From NCBI RefSeq assembly GCF_032854445.1, contig NC_088306.1, forward strand, positions 1,738,501-1,802,500: 64,000 nucleotides of DNA. The letters are read 5' to 3'. Of this stretch, positions 4,398 through 58,669 are shown one piece after another. Position 1 is the stretch's first letter; the number at the start of each line of letters is the position of its first letter. Both the position numbers and the translations under genes were made by a program. This DNA comes from Liolophura sinensis (taxonomy: Eukaryota; Mollusca; Polyplacophora; Chitonida; Chitonidae). The notes beneath the pieces are model-generated. The model worked only from the letters and a program-made list of their open reading frames with translations. It made no database searches and was not told the origin of the DNA.

Positions 4398-7300
4398 TTA
4401 GCTCACCCACTTCTGAATAACAGCGTCAGTGTCCAATTTCAGATTTTCTATATGCGAGTCAATCAGTTTTTCCAGCTCTCTGGCGCGGATGTTTTCCTCC
4501 GCCAAGAATCGCTCTGAGAATGATACATCACTCTGCTGTCCCTGTGCAGGTAGAAAAAATAGATAATACATATAACAAAATGAATGACAAAAATATGAAA
4601 TAAAAAAAAAAGGGCCAGCATGGCTCAGGAGAAAGATACTTTTGTCAAGAATAATAAACTAAACAGGAATTACGGCCCATTACACAAAGCGACAGTAACG
4701 CTATGCTTATGCAACTACCATGTCAGTGTACATGTAACATCTGCTTGTACAGTACTGGCCAGGCCACTTTCACAGAACTTCATACATGTAACTACCATGT
4801 CAGTGTCCTAGTAATACCTGCTTGTACAGTACTCGCCGGATCACTTTCACAGAACTTCCATACATGTAACTACCATGTCAGTGTACATGTAACATCTGCT
4901 TGTACAGTACTGGCCAGGCCACTTTCACAGAACTTCATACATGTAACTACCATGTCAGTGTACATGTAATACCTGCTTGTATAGTACTGGCCACGCCACT
5001 TTCACAGAACTTCATACATGTAACTACTATGTCAGTGTACATGTAACATCTGCTTGTACAGTACTGGCCAGGCCACTTTCACAGAACTTCATACATGTAA
5101 CTACCATGTCAGTGTACATGTAACATCTGCTTGTACAGTACTGGCCAGGCCACTTTCACAGAACTTCATACATGTAACTACCATGTCAGTGTACATGTAA
5201 CATCTGCTTGTATAGAACTGGCCAGGCCACTTTCACAGAACTTCATACATGTAACTACCATGTCAGTGTACATGTAACATCTGCTTGTACAGTACTGGCC
5301 AGGCCACTTTCACAGAACTTCATACATGTAACTACCACGTAAGTGTACATGTAACATCTGCTTGTACAGTACTGGCCGGGCCACTTTCACAGAATTTCAT
5401 ACATGTAACTACTATGTCAGTGTACATGTAACATCTGCTTGTATAGTACTGGCCGGGCCACTTTCACAGAACTTCATACATGTAACTACCATGTCAGTGT
5501 ACATGTAACATCTGCTTGTATAGTACTGGCCGGGCCACTTTCACAGAACTTCATACATGTAACTACTATGTCAGTGTACATGTAACATCTGCTTGTACAG
5601 TACTGGCCGGACCACTTTCACAGAACTTCATACATGTAACTACTATGTCAGTGTACATGTAACATCTGCTTGTATAGTACTGGCCGGGCCACTTTCACAG
5701 AACTTCATACATGTAACTACCATGTCAGTGTACATGTAACATCTGCTTGTATAGTACTGGCCGGGTCACTTTCACAGAACTTCATACATGTAACTACCAT
5801 GTCAGTGTACATGTAACATCTGCTTGTATAGTACTGGCCGGGTCACTTTCACAGAACTTCATACATGTAACTACCATGTAAGTGTACATGTAACATCTGC
5901 TTGTATAGTACTGGCCGGGCCACTTTCACAGAACTTCATACATGTAACTACCATGTCAGTGTACATGTAACATCTGCTTGTACAGTACTGGCCGGGCCAC
6001 TTTCACAGAACTTCATACATGTATCTACCATGTCAGTGTACATGTAACATCTGCTTGTACAGTACTGGCCGGGCCACTCTCACAGAACTTCATACATGTA
6101 ACTACCATGTCAGTGTACATGTAACATCTGCATGTATAGTACTGGCCGGGCCACATTCACAGAACTTCATACATGTAACTACCATGTCAGTGTACATGTA
6201 ACATCTGCTTGTACAGTACTGGCCAGGCCACTTTCACAGAACTTCATACATGTAACTACCATGTCAGTGTACATGTAACATCTGCTTGTATAGTACTGGC
6301 CGGGCCACTTTCACAGAACTTCATACATCTAACTACCATGTCAGTGTACATGTAACATCTGCTTGTATAGTACTGGCCGGGCCACTTTCACAGAACTTCA
6401 TACATGTATCTACCATGTCAGTGTACATGTAATACCTGCTTGTATAGTACTGGCCGGGTCACTTTCACAGAACTTCATACATGTAACTACCATGTCAGTG
6501 TACATGTAATACCTGCTTGTACAGTACTGGCCGGGCCACTTTCACAGAACTTCATACATGTAACTACCATGTCAGTGTACATGTAACATCTGCTTGTATA
6601 GTACTGGTCGGGTCACTTTCACAGAACTCCATACATGTATCTACCATGTCAGTGTACATGTAACATCTGCTTGTATAGTACTGGCCGGGTCACTTTCACA
6701 GAATTTCATACATGTAACTACCATGTCAGTGTGCATGTAACATCTGCTTGTATAGTACTGGCCGGGCCACATTCACAGAACTTCATACATGTAACTACCA
6801 TGTCAGTGTACATGTAACATCTGCTTGTACAGTACTGGCCGGGCCACTTTCACAGAACTTCATACATGTAACTACCATGTAAGTGTACATGTAACATCTG
6901 CTTGTATAGTACTGGCCAGGCCACTTTCACAGAACTCCATACATGTATCTACCATGTCAGTGTACATGTAACATCTGCTTGTATAGTACTGGCCAGGCCA
7001 CTTTCACAGAATTTCATACATGTAACTACTATGTCAGTGTACATGTAACATCTGCTTGTACAGTACTGGCCGGGCCACTTTCACAGAACTTCATACATCT
7101 AACTACCATGTAAGTGTACATGTAACATCTGCTTGTACAGTACTGGCCGGGTCACTTTCACAGAACTTCATACATGTAACTACCATGTCAGTGTACATGT
7201 AACATCTGCTTGTACAGTACTGGCCGGGCCACTTTCACAGAACTTCATACATGTAACTACCATGTCAGTGTACATGTAACATCTGCTTGTACAGTACTCG

Positions 7301-13300: not shown

Positions 13301-16300
13301 TCAGAGCTGTACAGTACTATCAGGTCTTGACAAAATATGCACCATTTGCACCATTTCCCCGTGCAATTCTGAGAGAAAATGAAATAAGCTTACCCCAATA
13401 TAATACACAATTACTAAAAATTAAACAAGTCTGCATGAAACAGAGGGATTTTTTTCTCGTTTTTTGTTTAGTTCATTTCATCAAAAATTTTTTTAAAAAG
13501 TGGAAACATCTCATGAACTTTCTTCTGCAAACGATGAACCCACGACCCTGCCAGAATGAGACTAACCTTTTTTATTTCTGACCTCAGAGATTGGATTTCT
13601 TTCTGCTCCAGGGACCCCAACTGTTGGGTCTGAAAATAGCAAAGTTACAGTTTTCATACTAGCTACAAGGTTAATTTACAATGATCCGTGGCTATTTTAC
13701 ACTACCCTGGTTCTTCATCCTTTTTGCAGATGAAAGAGAAACTTTCCGACAGAGCGTAATTTTTGCACATTTTTAATTTGATTTTGGAGACAAAACTAAA
13801 CTGGTTGGGTTGGCTAGTTTCAGAATATGCTTGAATAAACACCACGGAAACATGAGACAAGGTTGAAGAATTACAGTACAATTTAAAAAGTGTACATTTT
13901 CCTGAGAGTCATGAGAGCATAAAAAAAACAGTTTCTAGCTTTTGACAGAAAAGTAAATTATGAATACATATGTACGTCTCCTGGCACATGGTCTGTTTAT
14001 GTCAGAAAAAGAAACACAAAAAGAACAGGCTTAGGTCATAAATCTTGGGACAGGTGTGTTACACATCAGCTTTTGTGGAGCCAGTGCTGTGGGTCTTCAT
14101 ACTTGTACCTTATTGGTAAGCTGTTTGCAGATGTCCTCAAAGTCAATCTGGAGCTGCTCGTTCTCTGCTTTCAGAGCTGTGATCGTCTCTAATAGAGACT
14201 TCTCCGAGCGTCTGGAATTCCTAGGTAACAGAGCACCAAGATAGTTTAGCTGAGTTAACCAGAAAAATACACAAGCCCCTGCAACACTACTGGTTCTATG
14301 GACAGTTTCCAAAAATTGCCCTCAGACATTTATTCATTTAATTGGCATTTCTCAAGAATATTTCGCTTAGCAGGCCAGCATTACGGTCATTAGCGTGCTG
14401 GCACAGCTTTATTACCCAGAAACCTCTCCCCAATGTGGCCACTGTGAGCTCCAGCTCAAGTCCTGCTTGTGCTGGGGTCCTCCCACTTCATACATGAGAA
14501 GGTCTGCTACAAATCTGCAGATGGTCATGGGTTTCCCTCCCAGACTCTGCCCAATTTTCTCCCACCATAAAGCCAGCTCTCATCATATGCATGAAATGTA
14601 CAGCGTAAAAAAATCAATCAATCAATCAATAAATAAATCAATCAACTATCATGACTATGGCCAAGCACATTAAAATAGCTTTTTACAAGAATGCTTGACA
14701 TCCATTTCTGAGGATCATGCTAAAGAAGCATTCAGAAAGTATTGCCATACATATTCCCTACAAGTTGGACCCATCAAAATAATAACAGCTGTACATGTAT
14801 GTAAGAACCCATAGCCGAAAAAAACAACAGAGAGAAAAACGGCCATAAACGTAAGTATGCTGAAAATGGTTCCACCAGAAACACGAACTGTTATTTGTCT
14901 TGGTGATGAAGCCATGTGCGAAAAGTCAATCCAGAGTAATGGCCCCTTTTCAAAGAAAGTATGAAAATTGTTTTATAGGTGATAGAGAGACAAGGTAGGG
15001 AGCTAGAGAAAAGTTTGCCAATGTACGCAGATGCTAAATGAATATTTAGCTTACATGACTTCTACTAAATTGTTACCTCCTGTATGACATACATGATGAA
15101 AATGAATATTCATTAGAACCATGTCAGGGTTTGTTAAGACGAGTAGAGATTATAAGAATGTAGAAATCTCACTTGGTTTCTTGGCGTGAATTTCGCAGCT
15201 CCACTTTCATTCTCTGCACCTCCTCTGATTCCTCTTGCCGGCTCGCCTCCGTGAGGGATCTACAACAACAGCAACGTTCACACCACACACAAATCTCACA
15301 AAACATAACACATGCAATATGCTACTTCATGGTATATACAAATGATGGAACTTTATTCGATGCCTGTTGGTCATTTTGGCAAATAAGAGTTTTATTTATC
15401 CTGGGAAAGCATTCTGAGGTTAGTCTGAAAGGTAGAGTGATGCAAAAGTGTAGGCCTAAGTCACGGCACTAAACGTAACACTTTCTGATACTTATTTGTC
15501 TCACAATAGGCACAGTTTTGGGTGATTTATTAGGTCATTTAGTATAGTTTGTTATGTTGGTTTGAAGAAAATAACTGGATATTGTTTGTTTGCTTTCAGG
15601 TTCAACATTTAAACCTGAGAAATAACCTGTCCAATGATTAAATCTGGTTAATCTGGTAAAGTGGTTACTTTAACCCCTCAGCAACTACAGTGTCGTAAAA
15701 ATCAATGAATAATGTCACTTGAATAAAAATAACTCAAAGGTTAACAAAAGTTGGAGAAGGTACCTGTTTTCATGAGTATTACTTTTCTCCGATTCTTTAG
15801 ATATTATGCATGCTCTTAAGAAGAAAATCCTTCTTAACAATCTTTAAAACTTTCTGTGAAGAAAGGAAGGCCAAAAGAGTCACCACCTGCCAAAGGGAGA
15901 TAATCACTAAAGGGGGGTAACTCTATCTGTACCTGATGACTTCATCCTTGTCAGCCAGTGTTTGCTCCATCCTGATCAGATCTTGATTCCTCTGACTCAA
16001 ATCCTCCTCTAACATCCTGATAAAACCCTCCTGGGATTGGACGTCACCCTCAATCTTACATTTACCATCTTCTAGGGTCTGGAGGGGAAAATGTATACAT
16101 GCAGTAAGAAATCAGCTGTACATCAATAGAAGAGCTTCCATGAACAGATGTATGTTTGACTACACATGCTTCTTGTTCACTATTTGAGTACGATAATTCA
16201 AACAAATCATGTTTCAAAATCTCATGAAAATAAGTGTCACTAATTTATTTATTTATTTATTTGATTGGTGTTTTATGCCATACTCTGGAATATTTGACTT

Positions 16301-17433: not shown

Positions 17434-17485
<52 letters not shown>

Positions 17486-23549: not shown

Positions 23550-23619
23550 AGTCTCAGCAAACACTTCACAAAATAAGAGACATCTTTACGGATTTTCAAA
23601 CAAACCGGGGAAACTGTCA

Positions 23620-23710: not shown

Positions 23711-23798
23711 GATAAAGCAGACGATTTTTGGCTTCACAATTCCTGCGTGATTTACTTACTTACTTTGATCCTATTTCTGTGTATTTGACGGTGTCACA

Positions 23799-29215: not shown

Positions 29216-29248
29216 CAGACTGTTTATCAAAGTAACAATAATATGTGT

Positions 29249-42060: not shown

Positions 42061-45000
42061 GTGAGCTAGGGAGTTAACTCCATAAGGTCACTGTGCTGTA
42101 CTGAAAGATCGATTTGTGGTTTGCTTGTGGTTGCTTAAGTATTTAACATTCTCGGGGTTTGACTCAGTACGAAACTCTATGGTACACAACAAACAAAAAG
42201 ACGAAGGTCCTAAGGTAAATTCTGCCTCCAAAAATGAAGAAAATGGCATATTTCAGGCATCTCTTTCTGTGGTTCTCTTTCACTTTTTCCACAGAGGTCA
42301 TGCATTTTAGACCAATCAACACTAAGCTTAGGACATTGCAATTAACCTAGATACTACAGAGCTGTGTTTGTATCACGTGCCTTATTGTGGTGACTAAAAC
42401 TTTGCTGTACATTTGGGTGTGAAATATCAAAAATGTTAAAACAAAGTGAGCGATAGATCTGTAAACTGTGCTAAGTAACACTTTGATCACTGAATTAAAT
42501 TCCTATAGTTCGCCTTTATATATATTATTATTTCTTATCATAAAAACAAATCTAACAAGTAAATAAATCCAAATTCTTTTATTTGTAGAAATAAACAGCA
42601 TGAACTGATATTATTCTGGGAGGTAAACACACCGGCCAGTGTTTTGCTGGATGTTTGAAAGGTCATCTCTATTCATTGTGTATTTGTACACGGCCCACAA
42701 ATAACAGCAGGGCAGAATTACTGATGATTGATGTTATTCAAATACCACAGCAAGCCTTACACTTACACAAAGCTGTATTATTTTATACCCTCTCTGGCAT
42801 GTCGTGTATGGTAACAATTTTAGATTTTATGAAGAGCTTGTAAATTGATCATTTCAACTGCTATATTGTTTCTTGTCCAAAATTAAGATTAAAGCTGAGA
42901 TTCCTTACATGCGGTAGCGGTATACGGTACGCGGTATGCGGTACGCGGCAAAAAATCGAAATAGTTAAAATAAGTTGCAATGATTCCATAGGTATGGTCG
43001 CGGATCCGTTTTTTAATGCGGAAACGTATACGGCAAAATCAATCGCACCAATTAGCGATCGGTGCGGTATGCGTTTTCAAAACCGGACAGGGTATCCCAA
43101 GAAATGACGTCACTGGTGGGGTGTTTCCCCGACACGTGGTCGGAACTTGTTTGAATTGTTCTCTGGTTAGACGAAAGTACTGTTGGAATTTTTCTCCATC
43201 CAGCTGCAATTCCAAGACCAAGTTTTCGGAAAGCTCCCTGCTGAGCTCTTTGCCGCAAAATACTGTGGACCCACCATCGGTGTTTTCTCTTTTTACGCTT
43301 CTTTAGTTGCAACAACTTATATGACATTGCTATTATGGCAAGGTCTGAATCTTGCTCTAAAGCCACACGTCGTGAAATGGAGGAATGCGACATGTTTGCT
43401 CTGATAAAAACGCACCATGAATGAAAGAAAACGCATAGGTTACCGCATAAATGGAATCAGAGAAAGCGCACACCGCATGACGTATCCGCGTACCGCGTGC
43501 CGTATACCGCAAACCGCATACCGCGTATATGGAATCTCAGCTTAATTATGCTGAACATAGTTTGCTGCTTTATGTACAGATAGGTTGGATGACACAACTT
43601 TATGTGGTTACATATACATGTTCCTGACACAACTGCATGTGGATGCATATACATGTTCCTGATACGACTTCATGTGGTTGCATTTACATATTCCAGACGC
43701 AACTTCATGTGGTTGTATGTACATGTTCCTGAAACAACTGCATATGGATACATATACATGTTCCTGACACGACTTCATGATGATGCATATACATGTTTCT
43801 GATGCAACTTCATGTGGTTGTATGTACATGTTCCTGAAACAACTGCATGTGGATACATATACATGTTCCTGACACGACTTCATGACGATGCATATACATG
43901 TTTCTGATGCAACTTCATGTGGTTGTATATACATGTTCCTGAAACAACTGCATGTGGATACATATACATGTTCCTGACACGACTTCATGATGATGCATAT
44001 ACATGTTTCTGATGCAACTTCATGTGGTTGTATGTACATGTTCCTGACACAGGTTTATGTGGTTGCATGTACATGTTCCTAGCATATCTCCATTGTGTGT
44101 GTTTTACAGATTACACAGGTGATTTGAGCCTGGCCCTGGACCCTTACCCTCAGATGGACACGCCATCTGCCACAGAAGCCTCAGAGGTGTCAGCCACATC
44201 AGATGCTGACCAAGCCCATGATCTGTCAACCACCCAGACAGACAGGCCTCAGCCCCTCCCACCACCCCCTCGCTCAGAGACCCTCAAAGATGTCACCAAT
44301 GTTGCTAAAGATTCCAGTGGACAGAGCCCTAAGAAATCAGGTTAGAATTACTGTATTTGATCTAAAATTGTGACGTTTAGAAGGTAGGATGATATTCTAT
44401 TGAAAAAATTAAGTTTCAGCACTAAGATATTTTGTGACCTTATTTACTTCTAAAAATGCACTTTTTGGAGGCCAATTTTTAGAGCAAATGCAAAGGTGTC
44501 GAAAAACCAGCCATCACAGCTTTGAGCGTAATATTTTCACATTTCGAAGGCATTAATTTATTCCCTCACTTATTATTTTCAGAATAAAAGAAGGCTGTTT
44601 TATGAGGTTTAAACACTAAACAACACAATGTTTTTAGCAAATTTTAGGGACAGAAATGATACGATTGCCTCTTTTGTGATGCCAAATGAATGATAAGCAA
44701 AGTAGAAAGCTGATACTCATGCTCTTGGACCTTCAAATTATATTCTTCCATCTGTAATTTGAGTGAGTGAGTGAGTGAGTGATTGGGGTTTAATGTCATA
44801 CTTAATCTTTAATTTGAGAAGATGTGTTTGTTAATTTATTTTTTTGATTTCATTGGAGTTTTGTGCCATACTCAAAGATATTTCACTTACACGACTGCAA
44901 TCAGCATTAGAATGAGAGGAAACTGGGCAAAGCCCGGGGGGAAACCCACGGCGATCTACATGTTTTGCTAGCAGACCTTCTTCTTGAGGAAGGACGCATG

Positions 45001-48000
45001 CGCTGGACATGAACTCACAAAACTGGCGTTGGTTAGAAGCTCCTGGGTCATTTTGCTGAGCTAGCATGCTGACCACCAGGCCAGTTAGGCCCCCAATAAT
45101 AAAACTAATATAGGTAACAACGGTACATTTCAGTTAAACATAGAATTTAATTTTCATAAACTTTCTCTTATTGCACCAGTATGTTGCTCTTACAATTTTC
45201 ATTTTTGTTATCAGAGACAGTCCTGAAGAAACTTCTGAATCAAATCAAGAACCAGCGAGATGATTGGATAACCAGGTCCAGTCAGGAGGCCCCGGAACCT
45301 GAAGACGTCCTGTCCATGTCACCTCAATTGTTCAAGAAGTACCAAAGAGAGAAGGAGTGTCCAGTAGCTACCCTACCTAAGACAAATCAAGGTAAGATAA
45401 ATGAGTGTTTTCTCAACCTCTTACTGGTGGTATTTGTCAAGTGCCATTCTTTTGTTGTCAGTTTTGTGTGTTGTTGTTGATGCTCTGATCTCTAACACTG
45501 TAATGTCAATAGTTAGGCAAGTAGCCCTACAATGTCTGATCTCTAACACTGTAATGTTAATAGTTAGGCAAGTAGCCCTACAATGTCTGATCTCTAACAC
45601 TGTAATGTCAATAGTTAGGCAAGTAGCCCTACAATGTCTGATCTCTAACACTGTAATGTCAATAGTTAGGCAAGTAGCCCTACAATGTCTGATCTCTAAC
45701 ACTGTAATGTTAATAGTTAGGCAAGTAGTCCTACAATGTCTGATCTCTAACACTGTAATGTCAATAGTTAGGCAAGTAGCCCTACAATGTCTGATCTCTA
45801 ACACTGTAATGTTAATAGTTAGGCAAGTAGCCCTACAACGTCTGATCTCTAACACTATAATGTTAATAGTTAGGCAAGTAGCCCTACAGTGTCTGATCTC
45901 TAACACTGTAATGTCAATAGTTAGGCAAGTAGCCCAACAATGTCTGATCTCTAACTCTGTAATGTTAATAGTTAGGCAAGTAGCCCTACAATGTCTGATC
46001 TCTAACACTGTAATGTTAATAATTAGGCAAGTAGCCCTACAATGTCTGATCTCTAACACTGTAATGTTAATAGGCAAATAGCCCTACAATGTCTGATTTC
46101 TAACACCATAATGTTAATAGTTAGGCAAGTAGCCCTACAATGTCTGATCTCTAACACTGTGATGTTAATAGTTAGGCAAATAGCCCTACAATGTCTGATT
46201 TCTAACACCGTAATGTTAATAGGTAGGCAAGTAGCCCTACAATGTCTGATCTCTAACACTGTAATGTTAATAGTTAGGCAAGTAGCCCTACAATGTCTGA
46301 TCTCTAACACTATAATGTTAATAGGCAAGTAGCCATACAATGCCTGATCTCTAACACTGTAATGTTAATAGTTAGGTAAGTAGTCCTACAATGTCTGATC
46401 TCTAACACTATAATGTTAATAGTTAGGCAAATAGCCCTACAGTGTCTGATCTCTAACACTGTAATGTTAATAGGCAAGTAGCCCTACAATGTCTGATCTC
46501 TAACACTGTAATGTTAATAGGCAAGTGGCCCTACAATGTCTGATCTCTAACACTGTAATGTTAATAGGCAAGTAGCCCTACAATGTCTGATCTCTAACAC
46601 TATAATGTTAATAGTTAGGCAAGTAGCCATACAATGTCTGATCTGTAACACTATAATGTTAATAGTTAGGCAAGTAGCCCTACAATGTCTGATCTCTAAC
46701 ACTATAATGTTAATAGTTAGGTAAGTAGCCCTACAATGTCTGATCTCTAACACTATAATGTTAATAGTTAGGCAAGTAGCCCTACAATGTATGATCTCTA
46801 ACACTATAATGTTAATAGTTAGGAAAGTAGCCCTACAATGTCTGATCTCTAACACTATAATGTTAATAGGCAAGTAGCCATACAATGTCTGATCTCTAAC
46901 ACTATAAAGTTAATAGTTAGGCAAGTAGCCCAATGATGTCTGATCATAAAATACTATCATGTTAAAAGATAGACAAGTAGCCCTACCATGCCGTAAACAT
47001 TTCTTTGTAAATTTAAATTAGCTCTACATGCACTTGTATTTGAAGTTTAATTAACATGTTGGTGTTTGTACAGACAACCACGTCCCAGATACTTTGGCGT
47101 CTCCTCCCCATGCGTTAACTGACATGCCATCAGAAAAGGCTTTTCCATTGGGAAGAGAGCAAGGTCGTCATCAAAAGTTGTCTCCCCCTGTCAAGGACCA
47201 ACCAAGTCAACATGTGACAAGCGATAGGGAGCCTGTTGGAAAGGTGCCTGCTGGGGTTGCAGAGGTCAGTTTACATGTTGCTTCATTTAGTGCTGCTAGA
47301 CTGTTCATTGGAAATTCTGTATTTGTGAAGCACTGATTTGCCAGTCTTCATGGTTTGCACTTCCTGGTTATTTTTACGTACGCATCGGTGTTAAACACCA
47401 ATGCAGTCAGGTAGGTAAATAATTCAATAGAACCTCAGAGGATTTCAAAGTCATCATTGTGGTTTACAGGTCATGGATTTCCCCCAGGCTCTGCTCGGTT
47501 TCCTGTCACCATAAAACTGGCTGCCATTGTATTCAGTGTACGGCGTAAAAACAAATAAATAAATGTGCTTTACAAAGCTTGTCTTTACTAAAATTCAGCC
47601 TATGAAGGCATTAAATCCTTAATATTCATTTAAATTTAAATTAAGTTAAAATTAATAACACAGGGAAAGGTATGTGTTGAATACAGTTTGGAGTGTTCGT
47701 CTAATAATTTTATGTATTTTGGAAGGTGATTTTTGGTGGTTTGTTGATCATGTTGCCATCTTGTCAGCAGGACTCTCATGAACGTTGTGTGGAGGAAGCC
47801 AGAAGGGAGCTACAGCAAATACAGTAAGTACTAACGTGTCAGATCCCACTCAAGCCATGGTTTGGGTGGAACTGACACGGTACAGGACCTAAAATTTCAC
47901 CCGTCACCGAGGTGCAGCCTGATTCTGAGTTCCTGTAATCTTAGAAATGTGTTTTGAGGCTTGTTTGAAAGGTAAGGTGATATCCTAATGGAAAAAGATG

Positions 48001-51000
48001 AGTTTCACCAACAAATGTAATCTTTTATGACATTTAATGGCCTCTAAAAAAAATCACTTTGTTGGGCAAAAGTTTAGGTTGTTTGTCGTATTTACAGTGT
48101 AGAAGATATTTACACTGTTCTAGTGAAAGGTGAAACTGATAATAGAAAAAATATTTGCACTGTTCTAGTGAAAGGTGAAACTGATTATAGAAAAAAAATA
48201 TATATGCATGTATGTTTTCAGGCCACACATGGCACACCACTGCAGGTTCCCTTGAACTTCCTGATAAAAGAGCTCTCCATTCATTCACATGCCATGAGAT
48301 GAAGATTTGAAGCTTCAGAAGGGTTATTGTTTTCAGAAATGTCTTAAGAAAAGTATTTATCACCTGAAAATGTAACTGGAGTATTGTATTTAAATCTCTT
48401 TTGACTCATCCTGAATGCCCCAGCTTGGTGTGAGGGCTCATAATCAGTTAAACAGTTTTGATTGTATCCTGGTTTTTCTTTACAGAGAGAAGAAAGCCGC
48501 TTTGGAAGAAAAACTGAGACAGTATGCTGTACAGCAACAACAACAGCAGCACAAGCAGCAGATGGAAGAGTCTGTCGTCACGAGGTCTAAAAATGTGCTA
48601 GGTAACCTTGACAACCAGCTACAAGATCAACATTTGTATGTAGCAAGAAATCTCAAGGATATTGATAATGCTGATCAAGTGATATTTGCTACTAGTGCCC
48701 TTCCACCCGGAGCGGAATCCACACAAGAGGGTCAGAAAACTTTAGACGATGATGTTTATCCAGAAAGTTTGGCAATAGTCAGAGGACAGACTGGAATTAA
48801 AACAGCAGACCAACAAGATAGCGAGCAATTGCGAGGAGAGCCTGCTGGTTTGGACCTGAATGTCTTGTCCGAGGTGTTGGCGGGTAACACTGAATCAGAC
48901 CATGTGCGTCGAATCAGGGAATACCAGCAGCGTTTGCTGGAGCGACACAAGAGCTGGAAGATGTTGGCTGAGACGAGGTCTGATATTGAGCGACGGCGCA
49001 TTGAGCTTCGTCAGCGTTATCCTCAGCTTAACATTCCGCAGATGGAACCTCTGCCAACTTCAGGCTCATTAAGTCTCCTTAATGCACCAAGACCTTTTCC
49101 TCCAACGTCATCGGTACTCCCGTCACAAGACCCACTCGTGACTGCAGAACCCTCTCTGGCTCAGCCTGTTTCAGCCATCCACAACATAAATCCAAACCCC
49201 AAAGAACAACCAAATACATTTTCTCTTCAACAGTCTAATGGTGTCTCAGCAACCATTTTTCCTCCTGCATTGCCATCTGGTGTTGTTGCCATGCCAACCA
49301 CTAGTTCAACAATTCTTCAGACTAATGGTTTATCAGATAAAGGGGCCCTTGCTTCCAAAGTGGAACAACCCAAAATGGACAATGTTCGTAAGCAACTTCT
49401 TTTTGATTCAGAGACACCTAAAACTAGCCCAGAGAAACAGAAACCCAAAAGCCCTTTGACAGGGAGAAGAGACATGAATCGAGTTGTCCATTCGGAGAAA
49501 AACGAGCTACCACCAAACGCTGCAGTCAGTGATTTTGCTACAGCAGTTCCGCTCGGTCAGTCAAGAGTGAGGAAGAAAATCCAAGTCTCTCCAGCAAACA
49601 TTTCTCCAACAGAAGACCAGTCTTTGGACCATTCAGGAATTGATCCTATCCTGGCTCTCACAGAAGCAGCCAAGGAACGGAAACTTTATTTTGAAAAACG
49701 ACAGAGGCAACTGACGCAGCAACTTGAAGAGATTCAGAACCAAAAGGCTGCATACCTGAGCCAGCATGAAGACAGTCAAAGGAGACTGCAAGAACACCGC
49801 CAACGTGTTCTGCGAGAACTCATTCAAGGCTTTCCTTCTGAAACCTTGGACGATGCTATAACTCGTGAACAGCCCTTAGAGGTTCTGAGATCATCAAATT
49901 CTGTGGCCAAGCCAGAAACTGGAACCAGGCATCCAGATTCTTTGCAGAATGTTTCTTTTAAATCATTGAGTTCGGTTGGTCGCAAAACCTGGGCAGACCT
50001 TCTTCACGACGCAACAGAAAGTGCTGACTCAGCATCAATAGATCCAGTGTCACTTCTGAATGGCAGCCAGGCATCTGCGCCCGACTCCCATCAACCACAC
50101 GAGCTGAGCACTATTCTGGAGGTGGACACGCCCCCACAGAGCAAGAGTCTGTCGACAAGCCGGAGAAGAAGTGAGGGACAGGATGACGCTGATGGTCTTG
50201 TCATTGGACCACCTTCCCATGGCAACAGCATCTCCGGTGCTGAAATAACAGATGACAGATTTTCATCTCAGGTGAGCCATTTTCTCCTTAGTCCCACATG
50301 TATTTATGATGTTTTAACATGGCATTTCCAATCTACATGTTTAGACTGTGATTTATTTTTGAACCAGTGCTTATACGCTCTGACTGAGTGGAGTTGTCCA
50401 GCCCTGTACATAGGGAACAAATACTATTACTCAGCAGTGCCCTTTACCTGCTTGAATAATAATGTCAGCTTACATCAGTGCCCTCTACCTGCTTGAATAA
50501 CATTGTCAGCTTACATCTGTGCCCCCTACCTGCTCGAATAACAATGTCAGCTTACATCTGTGCCCTCTACCTGCTCGAATAACAATGTCAGCTTACATCA
50601 GTGCCCTCTACCTGCTTGAATAACATTGTCAGCTTACATCTGTGCCCTCTACCTGCTCGAATAACAATGTCAGCTTACATCTGTGCCCTCTACCTGCTCG
50701 AATAACGTTGTCAGCTTACATCTGTGCCCTCTACCTGCTCGAATAACATTGTCAGCTTACATCTGTGCCCTCTACCTGCTTGAATAACATTGTCAGCTTA
50801 CATCTGTGCCCCCTACCTGCTCGAATAACAATGTCAGCTTACATCTGTGCCCTCTACCTGCTCGAATAACAATGTCAGCTTACATCAGTGCCCTCTACCT
50901 GCTTGAATAACATTGTCAGCTTACATCTGTGCCCTCTACCTGCTCGAATAACAATGTCAGCTTACATCTGTGCCCTCTACCTGCTCGAATAACGTTGTCA

Positions 51001-54000
51001 GCTTACATCTGTGCCCTCTACCTGCTCGAATAACAATGTCAGCTTACATCAGTGCCCTCTACCTGCTTGAATAACAATGTCAGCTTACATCAGTGCCCTC
51101 TACCTGCTTGAATAACATTGTCAGCTTACATCAGTGCCCTCTATCTGCTTGAATAACAATGTCAGCTTACATCAGTGCCCTCTACCTGCTCGAATAACAA
51201 TGTCAGCTTACATCAGTGCCCTCTACCTGCTCGAATAACAATGTCAGCTTACATCAGTGCCCTCTATCTGCTTGAATAACAATGTCAGCTTACATCAGTG
51301 CCCTCTACCTGCTCGAATAACAATGTCAGCTTACATCAGTGCCCTCTACCTGCTCGAATAACAATGTCAGCTTACATCAGTGCCCTCTACCTGCTCGAAT
51401 AACAATGTCAGCTTACATCAATGCCCTCTAATATAGTTAATCATATGCATGTACATAGAGGCCACAGTTGTTTTATGTGTTGCAAGATTAGCCTCCCCTA
51501 CATAACATTAAATGTAACGTTTAATCCAAAGCAAACAAATGAATGTAGTTTTAGGATATGTATTAATTTATAAAAGAAGTTATTGTGTGTGTTTGCAGAG
51601 GATTTCAATGCTGCCACCACCCGGTTATGAAGATGTAACCAGAATAAGAGATGGTTTGGATGAGGATGGTTTGTACCGTTTGTTGGGTTTTTTTCCTGAG
51701 TTACAAGAGAAGATACAAAATACAAAACTACACACACTGTAAACATGTATTGGTTGTTCTGAGAGTTTATAGAACAATATGCACCCTTGTTATGCATGAG
51801 CATGTTAAAACATATCTTAGTTTTTGAGAGCTGCTGTCATGTAAGTGAAATATTACAGCGCAAAATTCAAATCAAGGTAATAAAACAAACATTTTTTTGG
51901 AGAAATCATGTCAACAAAATAACACATTTTCTTTGAGGCTGAAAATTGAAAAAGTGATCACATCTAAAGTTTAATCAGGCTTTGTTCTCATTCAGCAAAT
52001 TTAGAAGCTGTATGTCAAATGGTTCTGTGGGCCTCCATGCAAGCACAGCACAGCACAATGGCTGAGGAGCCTCTTACAAATATGGTCGTTGTGAGTTTAT
52101 GTCCAGCTCATGCTGGCTTCCTCACTGGACATGCACGGCGAAGTCTTCCAGCAACCTGCGGATTGTCGTGTGTTTACGCTGGGCTCGATTTCCTCCCAAT
52201 ATAATGATGGCCAGGGTCATATATGTATAAGTGAAATATTCTTGAGTACAGTGTAAAATACCAGTCAAAGAAATTCATAAATCAAATAGTTTTTGTAGAA
52301 ATCATATCCACAAGCATGACAAGGAACACACACACAGACAGATGGGTGCAAATCAAGATCCATTTCCAAAGGTGAATAAAAATACACTAGGAGAATGTCA
52401 TTTTAAGGGTCAGTGATATTCCTAGAATCTAGTATTAATTCATTACATTTAAACCTGAACAACTGATCATCTCATTTATTGTCTTTGTAGATTTTGAAGA
52501 AGGTTACGAGCCATTTGCTACTGGACTGGTGTTGAGAAAGTCTGATGACATCACGCTGAAAACAGTCAGCGAAGCCTCAGCGGCAGTGGCTAGAGCCCAC
52601 CAACTCTTAGCCCAAACGGCAATCCCTCTGCTCACAGGTTCCGATACAGACGCACATCTCTACGACAACCAGTCGTCTGGAAGCGATTTAGTCAGTGCGA
52701 TTTCAGGATCACAGAGCCACGCATCTGCCGAGTTTTGCGGCGCAGAGTTGCTGTTTTCCAAACGTGACCAGAAGGAGAGCTCAAACAACAGCTCTGTGTG
52801 GAGATCGCCTGATATATATGAGGGGTCTTCCCCGCATAGCTCAGAGGTAACCCAGTATTCTGCTCCTTCTGAGTCTGCTCGGTCAAACGGCTCTGAGGCA
52901 ATCAAGTCAACGGAAAGTCTCACTCAGTACATGGCCTACAGCAATGGTGAGAAATGGGGTAATGGCACCATGTGGATGACCAAGGATCGGCAGCTCTCTC
53001 CCTCAGGGGTATCAGAGGTAACTCAGTACTCTGGGGCGTCGGGGGTATCCCAGGACTCCACTGGGAAAAGATTGCACTCCTCGGAAGTTTTGGGAGATTC
53101 AGGAAAAGTCAGGGAGATGGGATCAGCAGAGATGAAGGGTAGAATTGTGGACAAGGTCGCGACCTTCAACTCACCTTCAGAACTAGAGCTGACCCAGTTT
53201 TCTCACAATTCAGAAAAAACGTCCAGTCAGGATAAGTCTTCCACTCTGTTTATAACGAGCAAGTCTCAGGTTGATGAAGAAACCATTCCTGGTTACCACG
53301 GCAACGATCCGTTGACAAGCCACACAGAAATTGCAGAGTTGCGTCCGAAATCTTCAACCAGTGTGTCTGCCACAGAAATAACGCAATATTCGTGCTCCCC
53401 AATATTAGAATTAAATACAGAACTTGAAGTTAAAGGCGGAAAATCGACTGAGACAAAAGAGTTGACACATGCAACATCACCTAGCATGCCTGGTATTGAG
53501 GAAGGCACAAACATTCCAGTCACAACCGAGTCCCAAATCCTGGAAAACGCCTCGTCACAGATGGAATTGACAAAAAATGTTCTCAACAAGCAGAGTTTGC
53601 ACTCTGCCAAGTCTTTGACTGAAAGACGTGCAGTGACATCAAGCGAGAATGTCTGGTCATCTGATCTTACTGAGTGTTCGGCCACTTCAGTTGGAGAAAG
53701 TTGTCAGAGAAACAACAAAACCTATCCGCAGAAAAACTCATCTCTGAGGGAAGTGTCAGACATAGGAGACATGACTTCCTACAGTTCAAGTCCTGCTGAT
53801 CACAGCACACCTGCTCAATCAGAACTAGGGAGAGATGTGAAACAAATGTCTAACTCAGAATCACAAAAAGAATCACTCCCTTTCCTGGATTTGTCACAGA
53901 AATCCAAGGAAAACCAGAGAGATATTTTCCGAGCCGTCAAAGTTTTCATAGAACCCCCAAACAGCCAGTCGTCTCCTCAAGGAACGGAGCGGTCGGGAAG

Positions 54001-57000
54001 GGATCGCACGCAGGGATCGTCAGTATCACAGGGCGTTGGCATAGACGTGCAATCAGGCCCTTCAGAGAGCAGTAGTTACATGACTCTGCCTGCCATGAGC
54101 AGAGCAAATCCCCTGGCCATGACAGACTTTTCTGCCTTCAGCAGCCATGTTAATGGAGACTTCCACTCCAAGACAGACTCTTTCGAAACTTTTGGTAGCT
54201 CCGGGTACCAGCCTCTTTCTGAAGATTCCTGGAAAACGCCGGGTATGACCTCACATCACGAGGACTCCCTGGCCCTGGACCTTCACAAGTGGAAGGAGTA
54301 TTTGCAGCTGGGTAGCCCTGATAAGGTGAGAATGAAAGAAAAGAATCCAATTTTCTGATATGTCGGTCAACTGGAAATTCCCTGACAGATTGAAATACAG
54401 GTATGGTCTTGATGAAACTGGTTACATGTGTTTGCATAAGTGCGATGTGTTTGTACAGCATTGTTCACATTGTTCAAATTGTGCTGACAGTGTACACGTC
54501 ATACGTGGTTGTTTGACAGTGTACACATCGTGTGTGGTTATGTGACAGTGTACACATCATATGTGGTTATGTGACAGTGTACACATTGTATGCGGTTATG
54601 TGACAGTGTACACATCGTATGCAGTTATGTGACAGTGTAACATCGTATGTGGTTATGTGACAGTGTACACATTGTATGTGGTTATGTGATAGTGTACACA
54701 TTGTATGTGGTTATGTGACAGTGTAACATCGTATGTGGTTATGTGATAGTGTACACATTGTATGTGGTTATGTGACAGTGTACACATTGTATGTGGTTAT
54801 GTGACAGTGTACACATTGTATGTGGTTATGTGACAGTGTACACATTGTATGTGGTTATTTGATAGTGTACACATTGTATGTGGTTATGTGACAGTGTAAC
54901 ATCGTATGTGGTTATGTGACAGTGTACACATTGTATGTGGTTATGTGACAGTGTACACATCGTATGTGTTTATGTGACAGTGTAACATCGTATGTGGTTA
55001 TGTGACAGTGTACACATTGTATGTGGTTATGTGATAGTGTACACATTGTATGTGGTTATGTGATAGTGTACACATTGTATGTGGGTATGTGACAGTGCAC
55101 ACATAGAATGTGTACATGTATGTTAGGATTATTGTATTTCACCCAAAGGTTGGCTTGTAAAAATGTACTTTCAAGTTGCACATATTGTGCTTTAAATATA
55201 TTATAAACAATATTATTGATGCCAGCGCTAAAGTTTTTCTGATGATGAATTAATGCAGCTTCACAAGAATTTCTTAAGAGGCCATTTACATGTAAGGTGG
55301 ATAAATCAATCAGAATTGAGCAAAATGTTTCCCTTGAAAAGACCAACTAAACTTAAGGTGATACAGTATGTATAAATATAACTATCATGAGTGTCATCTT
55401 TCACATCAGTGAGATGAGTGTCATTTTTGATGAAGGTTGTTTTCAGATAGTTCATTTCAAGCAGAGGGTTAACAAAAAATGTGAAAAAGGGTGTCCAAAC
55501 AGCTTTTCCTGAAGCTTTTTTATTTCAACAGAATGTTCAGATTTTCGAACAGTGCAGAAAATACATTAAGCAGAATTAAACGTCAACCAAGGAAAGAAAC
55601 ATTTCTTAAAGAACAAGGCGAACTATGCCGAACCTGTAACTGTTCAATCTTTTTGAAAAGTGATATTGCATTTTTGTGTCAACTGAAGTGGTTTTAAAGT
55701 TGCCATGCCAATTTAACCACAGCTTCATTTTAATAACACGTTTTAACTCCAATGGTCAATAAATGTTGCTTTTGTTGTTGTTAGTCGCAGATCTCCCTCT
55801 CAGAGCCTGGCATAATGGAGGAGGCTGAATTGACATTGGTGTCATCTGCATCAATAACCAGTCCATCCCGACTGCACGACAGCCAATCGGAGAGCTTGGT
55901 GTCATTTGAGCGTCACGAGGCCAGTGTGGATGACATCGGAGTGCTGACTCCCCGGCAGAAGTCAGACCAGCGTCATGACGACATCATGCTGTATTTGGAA
56001 CCTGGTGAGTTAGCCCTCAGTAGATGACTTCTGTGTTGTTGTTGTTGTTGTTAGGAGAAAAAATAGTGCCGGTGATAAGATTCATATTATAATCCATATT
56101 TGAAAATCTTTCAAAGACATGCTGATATACATACATGTATACGTGTACATGTGTTCAACCTGGAAATGGCAAACATCCTAAATCTTCTACTGGAACCGTT
56201 GCTGGTCTAAAGGACTGTATGTGGCTTCATAGCCTTTCTTTGCCTTTGACCAGTGAGGTCACGTGTTCAAATCCGGCTCGCTGTTTTGGCCACAGTTCTA
56301 TGCCAGGACGTTTGTTTGTTTTGTTGCTTTATTTTGTTGTGTTTGGCATAAATGTACCCACTGTACATTTGCATTCAATGCCAGCGGCACCCTGTTTTAG
56401 TGGCTATTTTCAAAGGTCATAGTGAATTGCCCCCGTGTACATGTCACTTTTTTTTTTGTCATTTATTTATTTCATTGATGTTTTATGCCATACTCAAGAA
56501 TATTTCACTAAGACGGCGGCCAGCATTATGGTGGGTTGAAACCAGGCAAAGCCCGAGGGAAACCTACGACCATCCACAGGTTGTTGGCTGACCTTCCCAC
56601 GTACAGCCGGAGAGAAAGCCAGCATGAGCTGGACTTGAACTCAATGTGACCGCATTGGTGAGAGACTCCTGGGTCATTATGCTGTGCTGTGCTATGATCT
56701 TGTCAAACTTGGAGTGTTTCACCACTGTGATACACTGCTCTCAATGTTGTTTGGCAGGAGACAAGATGAGCTCAGAAAAACGAGGCATGACATTACAAGA
56801 TGCATTCCTGGCCAAGAAGAAGGGCTTTGCGACCGCGTCAGAGAAGAGGGTTCTGGAAGCGAAAGAGAAAGCGCTTGGGCTCAGTGCCAAAGAAAAACCT
56901 CATGTGGAACCAGCTCAATCTGGTCTGACCAAAATGCTCGCATCATGGAAAAAATCTAGAGGCATTAGAGGTACAAGATTTAATATTGCTTCTGTGTCTG

Positions 57001-58669
57001 CTGTTTTTGTCTTCATGTGTTTTTTTCCCTCTGATAAGTGTTTTATGCTGAACTAACAGAATTTCGCTTGCATCCGATAGCATCAAAAATGACCTTTTTT
57101 GTAACCCCCCGTCTTTCTCATTTAACATGTTGGATGTCACATGTGAAGTACAACCCAGACTATGTCATTCATTGTATTTGAGGACAATTTACGTACTCGT
57201 TTCATCAGAATGTCTTTTCTCTTTTTTTTTGCCTTAAGGTTTCTCTGGTATAATTACGGTGATCTTCGGTCGATATGAACTGACAGATTGTTTATACAAT
57301 CAGAAATAATACTGTAAAACAATTCTCTTCCTATTATTTCAGCTCCCTCAAAGCCTTCTCCTGGCAGATCACAGCTGACACAGAAAACCAAGACGACCCC
57401 AGATCGTAAAAAACAGGAGAAAGAGAAAGTGGAGAGGACAAAGAGGTAAGGGGAGATAACCGTGTGTATCCAGCTTTTTCATGTCAAATTTTAGGAAAGT
57501 TATCACAGGCACTTTGGTTTCCATAAAACTGGCTGTTAGTTAAAAATTCCGGAGGACAGCATTTAACAACAATCAGATAAATAATGCATGTGTTTACATA
57601 AATTCTTAACCTTGTTACTACATTGAGAAAACTACATTGATTGGATTGGCCAGTGTCATGGCGTCTCAATGAGTATAATATTATCAGTCAACACAAAATA
57701 ATGCCATCAGAATATGCTTGAATAAAAATGTTGTGGACTTGTGAAGCGATTGAAGAACTACAGTATGTCATGTGCATTGTGTGCTGACCACTGTGGTGTT
57801 TGCTGATCACTACTTACTGATTCTCTGTGAAAGTTTTGAGGCCTTCTCATTGGTCAGGTTGTACAATCAGCTGGAGGAAGTGAAGGAGAGAAACCTCATA
57901 AAAGAGAGAGAAAAACAGTACGCCGCTAACAGAGACAAAGCCAAACAGTATCACAAGGTATGCACCAAAACCTCAACTACAAGTGGCTCTGGATCCCATT
58001 GTTCTAGGTTGTCCCTGTACCGAGAATTATGGTCTACCGTATTTCACCTTAAGTTTGGCGTATAAAACTATAAAGCTGCTGTTTTCAGGAGCACATAAAG
58101 GCCTTAAAATGATACTTCTGATATCAACATTGTTTTTGATAAGAAATTTATCAAACTTTACAAAATTTTTTTAATTTTATTCTTCAGATAAATCCCCATA
58201 TACCTCAACACACTGTTAACACGTTTTTCTGAGCATTGGTATTAAATAGAAATTATTTCTGCACACATGTGAAGCTGAGCTGTAAATTCAAGTTATTTTA
58301 AAGTTCATACAAAAGGTCTCAAATGTTGTTATAAAATTGGATGAATAAGTCAGAATCAAGCAATATGTGTCACCTGAAATGTGCCAAACCCCTCGTGAAA
58401 TACGGTACCTGTGTATAGCTGGCTGTGAACATGTTGGCTATCTTAAAAGTATTCATTTCTCCTCCTGGATCATGTCTTTTGCTTTGTGCACTGGACCATA
58501 TAGTTCTTTAATTGTTAGAGATCCAACATGGCCGCAAGTACATGTAGATGTGAGGTATACAGCAATAGTTTTACACATTTGTAGTGTATATTACTGTAAC
58601 TGTAAGATTTTTTTATTTTTGCAGAAAATGCAAGAAAACCTGAAGAAGAAGAGAGCATCAAAGAAATGA
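34930..58669 (+). CDS. CEP295: CEP295 (KIAA1731/Ana1-type) centriole protein, 21 coding exons
   Basis: CEP295 acts at the proximal centriole: it is needed to turn new centrioles into centrosomes and helps recruit CEP152 and CEP192; the fly protein Ana1 bridges CEP135 and Asterless. The phase-consistent exons give about 2000 aa (human about 2600). The N-terminus, MKSKHAKGIRCNGYRLSPNE, aligns with human MKRK...LRLSPNEEA, and is followed by a basic helix KRRKLRLLQVRE. Residues 169-177 contain the conserved run SLPPPPPDP. The C-terminus is the ALMS motif shared with ALMS1 (LYNQLEEVKERN...). The middle is low-complexity, Ser/Thr-rich and poorly conserved. The first ATG in frame after the acceptor at 34884 is 34930. 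Shares a divergent promoter region with SMCO4. The human middle part has a longer array of repeats than is seen here. Confidence 0.95.
36190..36900. mobile_element. Inverted-repeat element with internal duplication in CEP295 intron 3
   Basis: Left end: (GAGT)n then GTGCTTGGGGTTTAACATCG, TACTTAACAATTTTTCAGTC. Right end, reverse-complemented: (AATG)n then ATGCTTGGGGTTTAACGTTG, TACTTCATAATTTTTCACG. The arms are about 45 bp. The interior contains a 122-bp direct duplication (from 36485 and from 36607, GGGTGCACTGGTGCAACCAG). No transposase frame is seen. A solo end of the same family lies at 44763-44815. The end sequence is one I associate with mollusc repeats, from memory. Confidence 0.7.
37500..37642 (+). 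mobile_element. 5'-truncated, diverged SINE (family A)
   Basis: CTACAGATGGTCATTTGGTT, CTCACCACAATGTTGGCCAC and CATATAAGAAGTGAAATATT retain the core and tail blocks with many substitutions. It ends 27 bp before CEP295 exon 5. Confidence 0.7.
38135..38335 (+). repeat. Dispersed repeat, copy 2
   Basis: Same unrecognised repeat as at 1590-1790, same orientation. Shared strings include AAGAAACTATTCCTGCTACA, GAGTATGTTG-TCAT and GCAGACCAGATGTCC. It lies in the CEP295 intron between exons 5 and 6. Confidence 0.7.
38340..38575 (+). mobile_element. Second SINE-like family (family B) in CEP295 intron
   Basis: ACATGTTGTGCATATATGTA, CGTCACAGGTGGGAAAATTC and AATTGCCAAAGGTCAGTGGC form the head side. The tail reads CCCAATCAGATAAATAAATA. 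This is the least truncated copy of the family in the window. Confidence 0.6.
40265..41045. repeat. 24-bp minisatellite starting at the CEP295 exon 8 donor
   Basis: Unit GGTAACCCCGTGAGGGAGAA with AACA, about 30 copies, with a common variant ATAACCCAGTCAGGGAGAAA. The array begins at the exon-intron border (AAACAG|GTAAACC) and the unit resembles that border. Because 24 is a multiple of three, open frames arise on both strands (up to 227 codons on the minus strand) and are by-products. Confidence 0.96.
42893..43542 (-). mobile_element. PIF/Harbinger DNA transposon remnant, 650 bp, intact ends
   Basis: The termini are AGCTGAGATTCC and, inverted, GGAATCTCAGCT, with a 3-bp TAA duplication on each side (42890-42892 and 43543-43545), as in PIF/Harbinger insertions. 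Behind each end are clustered TACGCGG/TATGCGG motifs. On the minus strand, a frame within 43393-43220 contains RKHRWWVHSILRQRAQQGAF and the next part, in another frame (43221-43150), contains LQLDGEKFQQYFRLTREQF. Together they resemble the N-terminal part of Harbinger/HARBI1-type transposases, but a frameshift separates them and the catalytic DDE part is absent. It is a deletion derivative, not an active copy. It lies in CEP295 intron 10. Confidence 0.87.
43590..44075. repeat. 35-bp tandem array with 105-bp higher-order period
   Basis: Base unit about CATGTGGTTGTATGTACATG with TTCCTGACACAACTT. Three slightly different 35-bp units form a 105-bp block repeated from 43706, 43811, 43916 and 44021. 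The array ends only about 35 bp before CEP295 exon 11, so it makes up most of that acceptor's upstream region. Frames on both strands are by-products. Confidence 0.93.
44110..47823 (+). CDS. CEP295: CEP295 exons 11-14 (residues 327-543)
   Basis: Exons: 44110-44340, 45215-45391, 47074-47264 and 47771-47823. Exon 11 is acidic and Pro/Ser-rich (QPLPPPPRSE). Exon 12 holds a conserved block, TVLKKLLNQIKNQRDDW, aligning with human 'KVLFKKLLNKIRSQKSLW'. Exon 13 is low-complexity. Exon 14 begins after TTGTCAGCAG, a NAGNAG tandem acceptor, so transcripts may include or omit one Gln. Exon 14 ends ATACA|GTAAGT in phase 2. Confidence 0.9.
44763..44815. repeat. Solo end of the inverted-repeat family seen at 36190-36900
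   Basis: (GAGT)5 followed by GATTGGGGTTTAATGTCATA and CTTAATC. It matches the left end of the 36190 element; no right end follows. Confidence 0.6.
44830..45094 (-). mobile_element. Full-length but diverged SINE (family A) in CEP295 intron 11
   Basis: The minus-strand head (GGGGGCCTAACTGGCCTGGT), B-box region (GTGAGTTCATGTCCAGCGC), core and tail are all present with many changes, so this is an old copy. It lies 120 bp before exon 12. Confidence 0.8.
45483..46975. repeat. 51-bp minisatellite, about 29 copies, in CEP295 intron 12
   Basis: Unit GATCTCTAACACTGTAATGT, TAATAGTTAGGCAAGTAGCC, CTACAATGTCT. Several units share an 8-bp deletion (TAATAGGCAAG). The unit is 17 codons long, so 226-codon and 218-codon frames appear on opposite strands; neither is a gene. 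It begins about 90 bp past exon 12 and ends about 100 bp before exon 13. Confidence 0.97.
47462..47566 (+). mobile_element. Short SINE (family A) 3' fragment
   Basis: TTTACAGGTCATGGATTTCC, CCCAGGCTCTGCTCGGTTTC and GTACGGCGTAAAAACAAATA. The TATAAGTGAAATATTCTTG block is deleted. Confidence 0.7.
48486..50271 (+). CDS. CEP295: CEP295 exon 15, large central exon (residues 544-1139)
   Basis: A 1786-bp exon between TTTACAG (48485) and TCTCAG|GTGAGC (50271). It starts with KKAALEEKLRQYAV and a short Gln run (CAA/CAG codons, 48529-48563). It includes the conserved segment HVRRIREYQQRLLERHKSW (about 48900-48957), which aligns with human 'HRQMIRNYQHQLLQQNRLHRQS', and a second helix, LYFEKRQRQLTQQLEEIQN. 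In between are long disordered Pro/Ser/Asn-rich stretches. The frame stays open 225 bp past the donor, so intron retention would extend the protein by 75 residues. Confidence 0.93.
50430..51431. repeat. 41-bp minisatellite, about 24 copies, in CEP295 intron 15
   Basis: Unit AATAACAATGTCAGCTTACA, TCAGTGCCCTCTACCTGCTC, G. Variants alternate ACAATG/ACATTG/ACGTTG and CATCAG/CATCTG in blocks, so multi-unit duplications built the array. It fills almost the whole intron between exons 15 and 16. Confidence 0.96.
51599..51668 (+). CDS. CEP295: CEP295 exon 16, small exon with a weak donor
   Basis: Acceptor GTTTGCAG at 51598 is good. The frame RISMLPPPGYEDVTRIRDG follows exon 15 in phase 0. Exon 17 needs an incoming phase of 1. 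The two GT sites that give this, GATG|GTTTGG (51650s) and GATG|GTTTGT (51668), are both poor donors; the second was chosen because the joined product stays acidic and open. An unseen further exon between 51670 and 52490 is also possible. Confidence 0.6.
52030..52285 (+). mobile_element. Near full-length, diverged SINE (family A) in CEP295 intron 16
   Basis: Head TGGGCCTCCATGCAAGCACA with disrupted A-box, then TTGTGAGTTTATGTCCAGCT, CATGCTGGCTTCCTCACTGG and AATATTCTTGAGTACAGTGT. It lies 200 bp before exon 17. Confidence 0.8.
52491..54325 (+). CDS. CEP295: CEP295 exon 17, large Ser/Thr-rich exon (residues 1163-1774)
   Basis: An 1835-bp exon from TTTGTAG|ATTTTGAAG to GATAAG|GTGAGA. It begins FEEGYEPFATGLVLRKSDD and is then disordered and rich in Ser, Thr, Glu and Gln, so probably a phosphorylation-prone linker. 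A short motif, E-V/L/I-T-Q-Y/F-S, recurs at residues 1281, 1338, 1395 and 1458, with weaker versions near 1306, 1554 and 1589. The end (LALDLHKWKEYLQLGSP) is again helical. No counterpart to this motif series is known to me in vertebrate CEP295. Confidence 0.92.
54485..55100. repeat. 29-bp minisatellite, about 21 copies, in CEP295 intron 17
   Basis: Unit CAGTGTACACATTGTATGTG and GTTATGTGA, with 28-bp variants (CAGTGTAACATCG). It starts about 160 bp after exon 17. Confidence 0.95.
55785..58669 (+). CDS. CEP295: CEP295 exons 18-22 with C-terminal ALMS motif (residues 1775-2000)
   Basis: Exons: 55785-56004, 56758-56970, 57343-57445, 57858-57957 and 58625-58669 (stop TGA 58667-58669). Exon 18 carries GIMEEAELTLVSSASIT, nearly the same as human 'GIMEEPELTLVSTTDTS'. 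Exons 19-22 form the ALMS motif: LQDAFLAKKKGFATASEKR, then LYNQLEEVKERN and NRDKAKQYHKKMQENLKKKR. The acceptor of exon 18 is doubled (GTTAG at 55784 and CGCAG at 55790), both in phase, giving an optional two-residue difference. In ALMS1 and CEP295 this motif targets the centriole. Confidence 0.94.
56458..56697 (-). mobile_element. SINE (family A) 60 bp upstream of CEP295 exon 19
   Basis: Tail (TTTATTTATTTCATTGATGT), core (CCAGCATTATGGTGGGTTGA) and head up to AATGACCCAGGAGTCTCTCA are present on the minus strand. The 5' end of the head (GGCCTCCGTGGCTCAG) is missing. The exon acceptor follows 60 bp downstream, so the branch point may lie just outside or at the edge of the SINE. Confidence 0.88.

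Follow-up and report, generated by a model that had tools for sequence, protein, structure and literature searches.

We analysed a stretch of 64,000 nucleotides (the window) from the chiton Liolophura sinensis, a mollusc whose species name was changed to L. sinensis in a published correction (PMC12441733). The window covers positions 1738501-1802500 of scaffold_8 (here C12), within a contig of 31,077,156 bp, and contains no N. It carries CEP63/DEUP1 (-), COMMD2 (+), SMCO4 (-) and CEP295 (+), which form two head-to-head pairs (Table 1). The outer limits of this block, 4398 and 58669, correspond to the final base of the stop codon in the CEP63 and the CEP295 model, respectively. CEP63 and DEUP1 are paralogues in human, and we compared the surroundings of the chiton gene with those of both.

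All four genes were found by tblastn with human proteins as queries, and splice models were built from GT-AG sites and the reading frame. The CEP63/DEUP1 protein matched the Pfam family CEP63 (PF17045; 1.5e-54, 186 bits versus a cut-off of 33) over profile positions 2-263 of 263. It also matched the CEP152-binding coiled coil (PF25771; 7.1e-8, 32.3 bits versus a cut-off of 21), from which binding to CEP152 is predicted. Its matches in PDB were human CEP63 9i7q_B (4.9e-12) and, weakly, human CEP63 6csu_C (E 0.08). The first exon, MEEQFKAFINR (start 21105), was preferred to one other candidate on account of its donor score and phase; human CEP63 starts with MEALLEGIQNR, which has the same length and end. 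COMMD2 is complete and has the human length (199 amino acids, aa). Its best PDB match was human COMMD2 (8f2r_B, 2.6e-78), followed by COMMD5 (1.2e-7), and it contains the Pfam domains COMM_domain (1.5e-11) and COMM_HN (1.9e-5).

SMCO4 was identified by DUF4519 (PF15012, 3.6e-24) over residues 1-55 of 57 and by tblastn with human SMCO4 (3.4e-12); one membrane helix was visible by eye. The CEP295 N-terminus, of the LSPNEEA...RRRKLRLLQVR type, is identical to human CEP295 at 23 of 35 positions (66%; 2.3e-7). The C-terminal ALMS motif (PF15309) reached 26.3 bits, just below the cut-off of 27 (E 1.1e-5; profile 4-132 of 133). The CEP295 exon borders are provisional, with three weak splice sites, and the open reading frame (ORF) 51518..51742 might be a missed exon. 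Splice models, tblastn, Pfam and PDB matches thus bear out the first-pass annotation, which had named these four genes in this order. Its further claim that no other gene lies between them agrees with the ORFs of at least 70 aa, among which we recognised no further gene; the Pfam scan covered ten selected ORFs, and short or lineage-specific genes could therefore be missed.

Table 1. Genes and features of the window (positions are those of the window; CpG o/e, ratio of observed to expected CpG, ranked among separate 400-bp segments)
Feature	Position	Strand	Remarks
CEP63/DEUP1	21105..4398	-	17 coding exons, 768 aa; splice model
Last CEP63 exon with CEP152-binding coiled coil	4398..4541	-	Pfam PF25771 4.5e-9 on exon ORF
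77-bp x 40 tandem array	4709..7795		within last CEP63 intron
Candidate shared promoter CEP63/COMMD2	23351..23750		CpG o/e 1.09, third-highest in window
COMMD2	23799..27378	+	5 exons, 199 aa; splice model
SMCO4	31120..30947	-	one coding exon, 57 aa
Candidate shared promoter SMCO4/CEP295	32001..32400		CpG o/e 1.27, second-highest in window
CEP295	34930..58669	+	provisional 20-exon draft, 1984 aa

A search of the whole chiton genome (609,464,459 bases in 632 contigs) found one CEP63/DEUP1 gene. Of its 17 matches, 16 fell in the window, each with an E value of at most 0.0051, and the 17th, on contig C6, had E 0.28. The query lacked the first 11 aa and all 41 of 41 candidates were scored; such a search may miss a copy that has diverged strongly. 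Partial genome duplication has been reported for this species, and no second CEP63 copy from it was found in the whole-genome search. A second DNA match, on C4, covers window positions 20184-20297. These fall in none of the CEP63 exons, and we took the match to be a repeat.

Similarity to the two human proteins was counted in a three-way alignment of the chiton protein with human CEP63 and DEUP1, which is not a rooted tree. The chiton residue agreed with CEP63 only at 74 sites and with DEUP1 only at 69, which is no difference (P 0.74); at 87 sites only the two human proteins agreed. This balance is compatible with the chiton gene being an outgroup to both paralogues, as far as an alignment of this kind can tell. 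If the duplication were older than vertebrates, the chiton gene could instead be orthologous to DEUP1 and still stand at the DEUP1 locus, molluscs having lost CEP63. The gene does occupy the position of DEUP1, and over the C-terminal 45 aa it is slightly nearer DEUP1 (16/41) than CEP63 (13/41). However, besides the balanced overall count, BLASTP scored higher with CEP63 (254 bits) than with DEUP1 (202 bits; DEUP1 is shorter), and the genome search yielded no second gene. A review also dates the split of DEUP1 from CEP63 to vertebrate evolution, citing Zhao 2013 (PMC6210342). We consider a pre-vertebrate duplication very unlikely.

We next compared the gene order with human. Human 11q21 resembles the chiton window in holding DEUP1, SMCO4 and CEP295 in one region, with SMCO4 and CEP295 divergent; in human the three genes are consecutive. 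Their position at 11q21, as given in the first-pass annotation, is confirmed by published positions. One paper puts DEUP1 at 11:93.06-93.07 Mb, with SMCO4 at 11:93.27 Mb (PMC13371021), and another places CEP295 (printed CP295) and DEUP1 within one 2-Mb part of 11q21 (PMC9296550). In sheep, SMCO4 and CEP295 lie inside a 0.53-Mb interval (PMC8472390). Human 11q21 differs from the chiton in that COMMD2 is elsewhere, at 3q25.1. The further neighbours differ as well: C11orf54 is on chiton C10, and the next recognised gene past CEP295 is BRCC36.

The other human counterparts are on 3q. Neither SMCO4 nor CEP295 is known from 3q22.2 or 3q25.1. The claim that CEP63 and COMMD2 are both on 3q was correct, as two papers give 3q22.2 for the former, at ~134.4 Mb with AMOTL2, ANAPC13, EPHB1 and KY (PMC9803250), and 3q25.1 for the latter, in the local order TM4SF4-WWTR1-COMMD2-ANKUB1 with WWTR1 at 149.2-149.5 Mb (PMC4567323). 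These bands carry the CEP63 and COMMD2 counterparts, and AMOT and YAP are on the chiton window's contig. Unlike in the chiton, however, human CEP63 and COMMD2 are ~15 Mb apart by the published positions, and chiton ANAPC13 is on C1.

If 28,010 genes were shuffled, the chance that SMCO4 and CEP295 both fall within three genes of CEP63 would be roughly 5e-8. The common order might be a coincidence or an assembly artefact, given that one assembly was used and the match to the human order is partial. Both the shuffling estimate and the position of the N-free window inside a 31-Mb scaffold speak against this, and we regard its probability as negligible. Because the source is a mollusc, an order common to chiton and human bridges protostomes and deuterostomes.

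To place the wider surroundings, 19 human 3q22-25/11q21-22 genes were sought in the chiton genome, and 18 were placed. In human, AMOTL1, YAP1 and CWC15 belong to 11q21-22, and SERP1, EIF2A, SELENOT and RNF13 to 3q25.1. Seven of the 18 were on C12, namely AMOT (the sole AMOT match in the genome), YAP/WWTR1, CWC15, SERP1 (weak at first, E 0.0013, and firm on closer look), SELENOT, EIF2A and RNF13. With C12 making up 5.1% of the genome by length, the binomial P was 1.7e-5. It was 9.0e-5 when the neighbour pairs SERP1/EIF2A and FAM76B/CEP57 were counted once (6/16), 9.4e-4 when AMOT and YAP were left out (5/16), and 0.0045 under both restrictions (4/14). None of five controls (TBP, PCNA, TPI1, EIF6, PSMA1) was on C12. 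By human band, the C12 share was 5/6 for 3q25.1, 3/8 for 11q21-22 and 1/6 for 3q22-23, with AMOT and YAP in two bands each. As for the other genes, ANAPC13, MRE11, FAIM (whose second, weaker match was on C12), CEP57 and FAM76B were on C1; SIAH on C6; UBA5 and DBR1 on C4; COPB2 on C9; C11orf54 on C10; and DCUN1D5 on C8 (C1 and C12 matched it less well).

For each of three C12 genes, CEP63, AMOT and YAP, there is a human relative in 11q21-22 and another in 3q22-25. As AMOT and YAP, the counterparts of the AMOTL1/AMOTL2 and YAP1/WWTR1 pairs, share the contig of CEP63, the duplication seems to have involved a chromosome block or the whole genome. We therefore favour, with a probability of about 0.8, the reading that the window preserves part of the neighbourhood which surrounded the single CEP63/DEUP1 gene of the bilaterian ancestor, whose chromosome was doubled in early vertebrates. 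In the ancestor, this gene would already have been near the divergent pair SMCO4-CEP295, and COMMD2, AMOT, YAP, SERP1-EIF2A, SELENOT, RNF13 and CWC15 would have been on the same chromosome. The early vertebrate genome doubling would have copied this chromosome, with reciprocal losses following. One copy (human 11q21-22) would have retained DEUP1, SMCO4, CEP295, CWC15, AMOTL1 and YAP1, and the other (3q22-25) CEP63, AMOTL2, WWTR1, COMMD2, SERP1, EIF2A, SELENOT and RNF13. Common ancestry of the order, with genome doubling as the cause, is what we infer here, and doubling with reciprocal loss is the best account of the CEP63, AMOT and YAP pairs. Since SMCO4-CEP295 is beside DEUP1 in the 11q copy, DEUP1 would keep the old address and CEP63 would have lost it, which suggests that DEUP1, the multiciliated-cell gene, kept the ancestral neighbourhood. 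Neither the genome-doubling origin nor DEUP1 at the old address was met in the open-licence literature among the matches listed, which is weak evidence of absence.

Several points weigh against this reading. Human DEUP1 has the opposite orientation relative to SMCO4-CEP295 from that of the chiton gene. Eleven of the 18 placed genes were off C12, and among the six 3q22-23 genes AMOT alone supports the CEP63 end. MED17, outside the 18, gave no match in the chiton genome search, which is not proof of absence. The gene list was chosen knowing the AMOT and YAP pairs; SELENOT, SIAH, UBA5, DBR1, COPB2 and FAIM were placed from 32 of 94 candidates scored, and EIF2A, RNF13, C11orf54, FAM76B and DCUN1D5 from 34 of 48. 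The excess of sites common to CEP63 and DEUP1 (the 87 above) was not significant (P 0.085), and the invertebrate sample is one species. Finally, the top CpG peak of the window (o/e 1.61 at 42801-43200) falls within an intron of CEP295 and away from any promoter. The 11 genes off C12 imply that human 3q22-23 and 11q21 are composites. The placements fit a derivation of COMMD2's 3q25.1 block and part of 11q21-22 from the window's chromosome, with 11q21 also having taken genes from C1 and C10.

A stronger version holds that the full order CEP63-COMMD2-SMCO4-CEP295 is ancestral, COMMD2 having been lost from the 11q copy and parted from CEP63 on 3q. In its favour, COMMD2 and five of the six tested 3q25.1 genes (WWTR1/YAP, SERP1, SELENOT, EIF2A and RNF13; not SIAH2) are on the contig of CEP63, SMCO4 and CEP295, and chiton CEP63 and COMMD2 are divergent, with starts 2.7 kb apart and one CpG segment. 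However, human COMMD2 adjoins WWTR1 at the far side of the ~15-Mb gap, human CEP63 is listed with ANAPC13, whose chiton gene is on C1, and the adjacency of CEP63 and COMMD2 was seen here in the chiton alone. Shuffling of genes within chromosomes is also common. We keep this version as tentative, at a little under even odds. The first-pass annotation had taken the four-gene order as the state before the vertebrate duplication. What stands of that proposal is the single gene, about equally similar to CEP63 and DEUP1, beside SMCO4-CEP295 and on a contig with AMOT and YAP; an ancestral place of COMMD2 between CEP63 and SMCO4 is less certain, as the human gap is equally explained by a later move within the chromosome. 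It had also assigned one duplicate to SMCO4-CEP295, as DEUP1, and the other to the COMMD2 side, as CEP63. This is supported in part, by DEUP1 with SMCO4-CEP295 and by the C12 location of the five genes from COMMD2's 3q25.1 region.

We then examined the segments between the divergent genes. CpG is scarce in the window as a whole (median o/e 0.38). Like conserved divergent pairs with a shared promoter, SMCO4/CEP295 and CEP63/COMMD2 stand head to head, and between the two starts of each pair lies one segment that has retained CpG. Their start codons are 2.7-3.8 kb apart, which is longer than the usual definition of a divergent promoter pair (<1 kb). The segment between CEP63 and COMMD2 contains the window's only two ETS-type SCGGAAGY sites. 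A motif scan of 23100-23860 and 31900-32500 detected no X-box (RFX), E2F, NRF1, NF-Y, YY1 or CRE site in either segment. It gave four CHR-like matches (80 in the window); CHR-like and ETS-type sites are not centriole-specific.

Two further head-to-head pairs were found in the chiton genome. FAM76B (-) and CEP57 (+), the latter a further centriole gene, are at C1:59866462-59872102, with matched segments ~1.8 kb apart and a CpG peak of 1.05 at the FAM76B start. SERP1 (-) and EIF2A (+) are at C12:18087886-18105974, with a peak of 1.49 at the SERP1 start and another, of 1.38, within EIF2A. Both pairs are also head to head in human, at 11q21 and 3q25.1, respectively. They join functionally unrelated genes, and shared promoters therefore suffice to explain conserved pairs. 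Judging from the CpG segments, the conserved pairs are most likely held by shared promoters and not by a joint CEP152 role.

The first-pass annotation had suggested that the linkage of CEP63 and CEP295 may be functional, two CEP152-feeding genes being kept together for co-regulation. SMCO4 and COMMD2 have no known centriole role, which counts against such an explanation. Three of the four genes are nevertheless together in both mollusc and human, and both centriole genes act toward CEP152 recruitment: according to a review, CEP63 recruits CEP152, CEP295 acts via CEP192 on CEP152, fly Ana1 acts on Asterless, and CEP57 anchors CEP63/CEP152 (PMC7349492). However, CEP57, this partner of CEP63, is on C1, and we rejected it as part of the block. 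Human CEP63 itself is away from SMCO4-CEP295, the X-box and E2F sites are absent from both scanned promoter segments, and promoter sharing is enough for divergent pairs with unrelated functions. With no centriole-specific motif in these segments, functional linkage was rejected as unsupported, and we hold it to be highly improbable. A variant places DEUP1 at the ancestral locus and sees the block as a bilaterian-or-older two-promoter unit, which would have co-expressed two CEP152-feeding genes before the vertebrate split of roles between cycling and multiciliated cells. We regard this variant as rather unlikely.

The 100-kb flanks contained no further human 3q/11q neighbour among ten ORFs scanned on both sides. 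Pfam matches over the cut-off identified two exons of BRCC36 in these flanks, as well as a CUB protein and a sulfatase-like gene (DUF229). BRCC36 (-) is at C12:1803920-1804750; its human counterpart is X-linked and uninformative here. A block of mobile-element- or DNA-virus-like ORFs spans C12 ~1867000-1880000, and one of them resembles a type-B DNA polymerase by eye. Within the window, a tandem array of 42 bp x 74 (60165-63263) lies beyond CEP295, and 42801-43456 is a CpG-rich transposon-like stretch, Harbinger-like by eye, in which the tested ORF had no Pfam match. A SINE-like interspersed repeat (e.g. 17648-17924) occurs in many copies in both orientations, as stretches mostly of ~100-280 bp that are 74-91% alike. 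The ORF 14715..14972 (-), in a CEP63 intron, has a possible membrane segment and no Pfam match, and may be due to chance.

The MCIDAS-CCNO-CDC20B cluster is likewise a conserved neighbourhood with centriole-amplification genes. Two of the four chiton genes have no known centriole role, which sets this block apart from the cluster, and the chiton block links a mollusc to human. The cluster is reported from human, mouse, frog and coelacanth, and also from some bony fish and one cartilaginous fish; in Otomorpha it is reported as broken (PMC8470418).

If the favoured reading of an ancestral neighbourhood doubled in early vertebrates is right, the CEP63/DEUP1 split gains a physical origin, as a chromosome-block duplication common to AMOTL1/2 and YAP1/WWTR1 and not a lone gene duplication. 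It would also indicate which copy moved, CEP63 having lost the old neighbours that DEUP1 kept. The same reading predicts CEP63 beside SMCO4-CEP295 in other animals, and this address could aid in recognising CEP63 genes that have diverged too far for sequence searches to detect.

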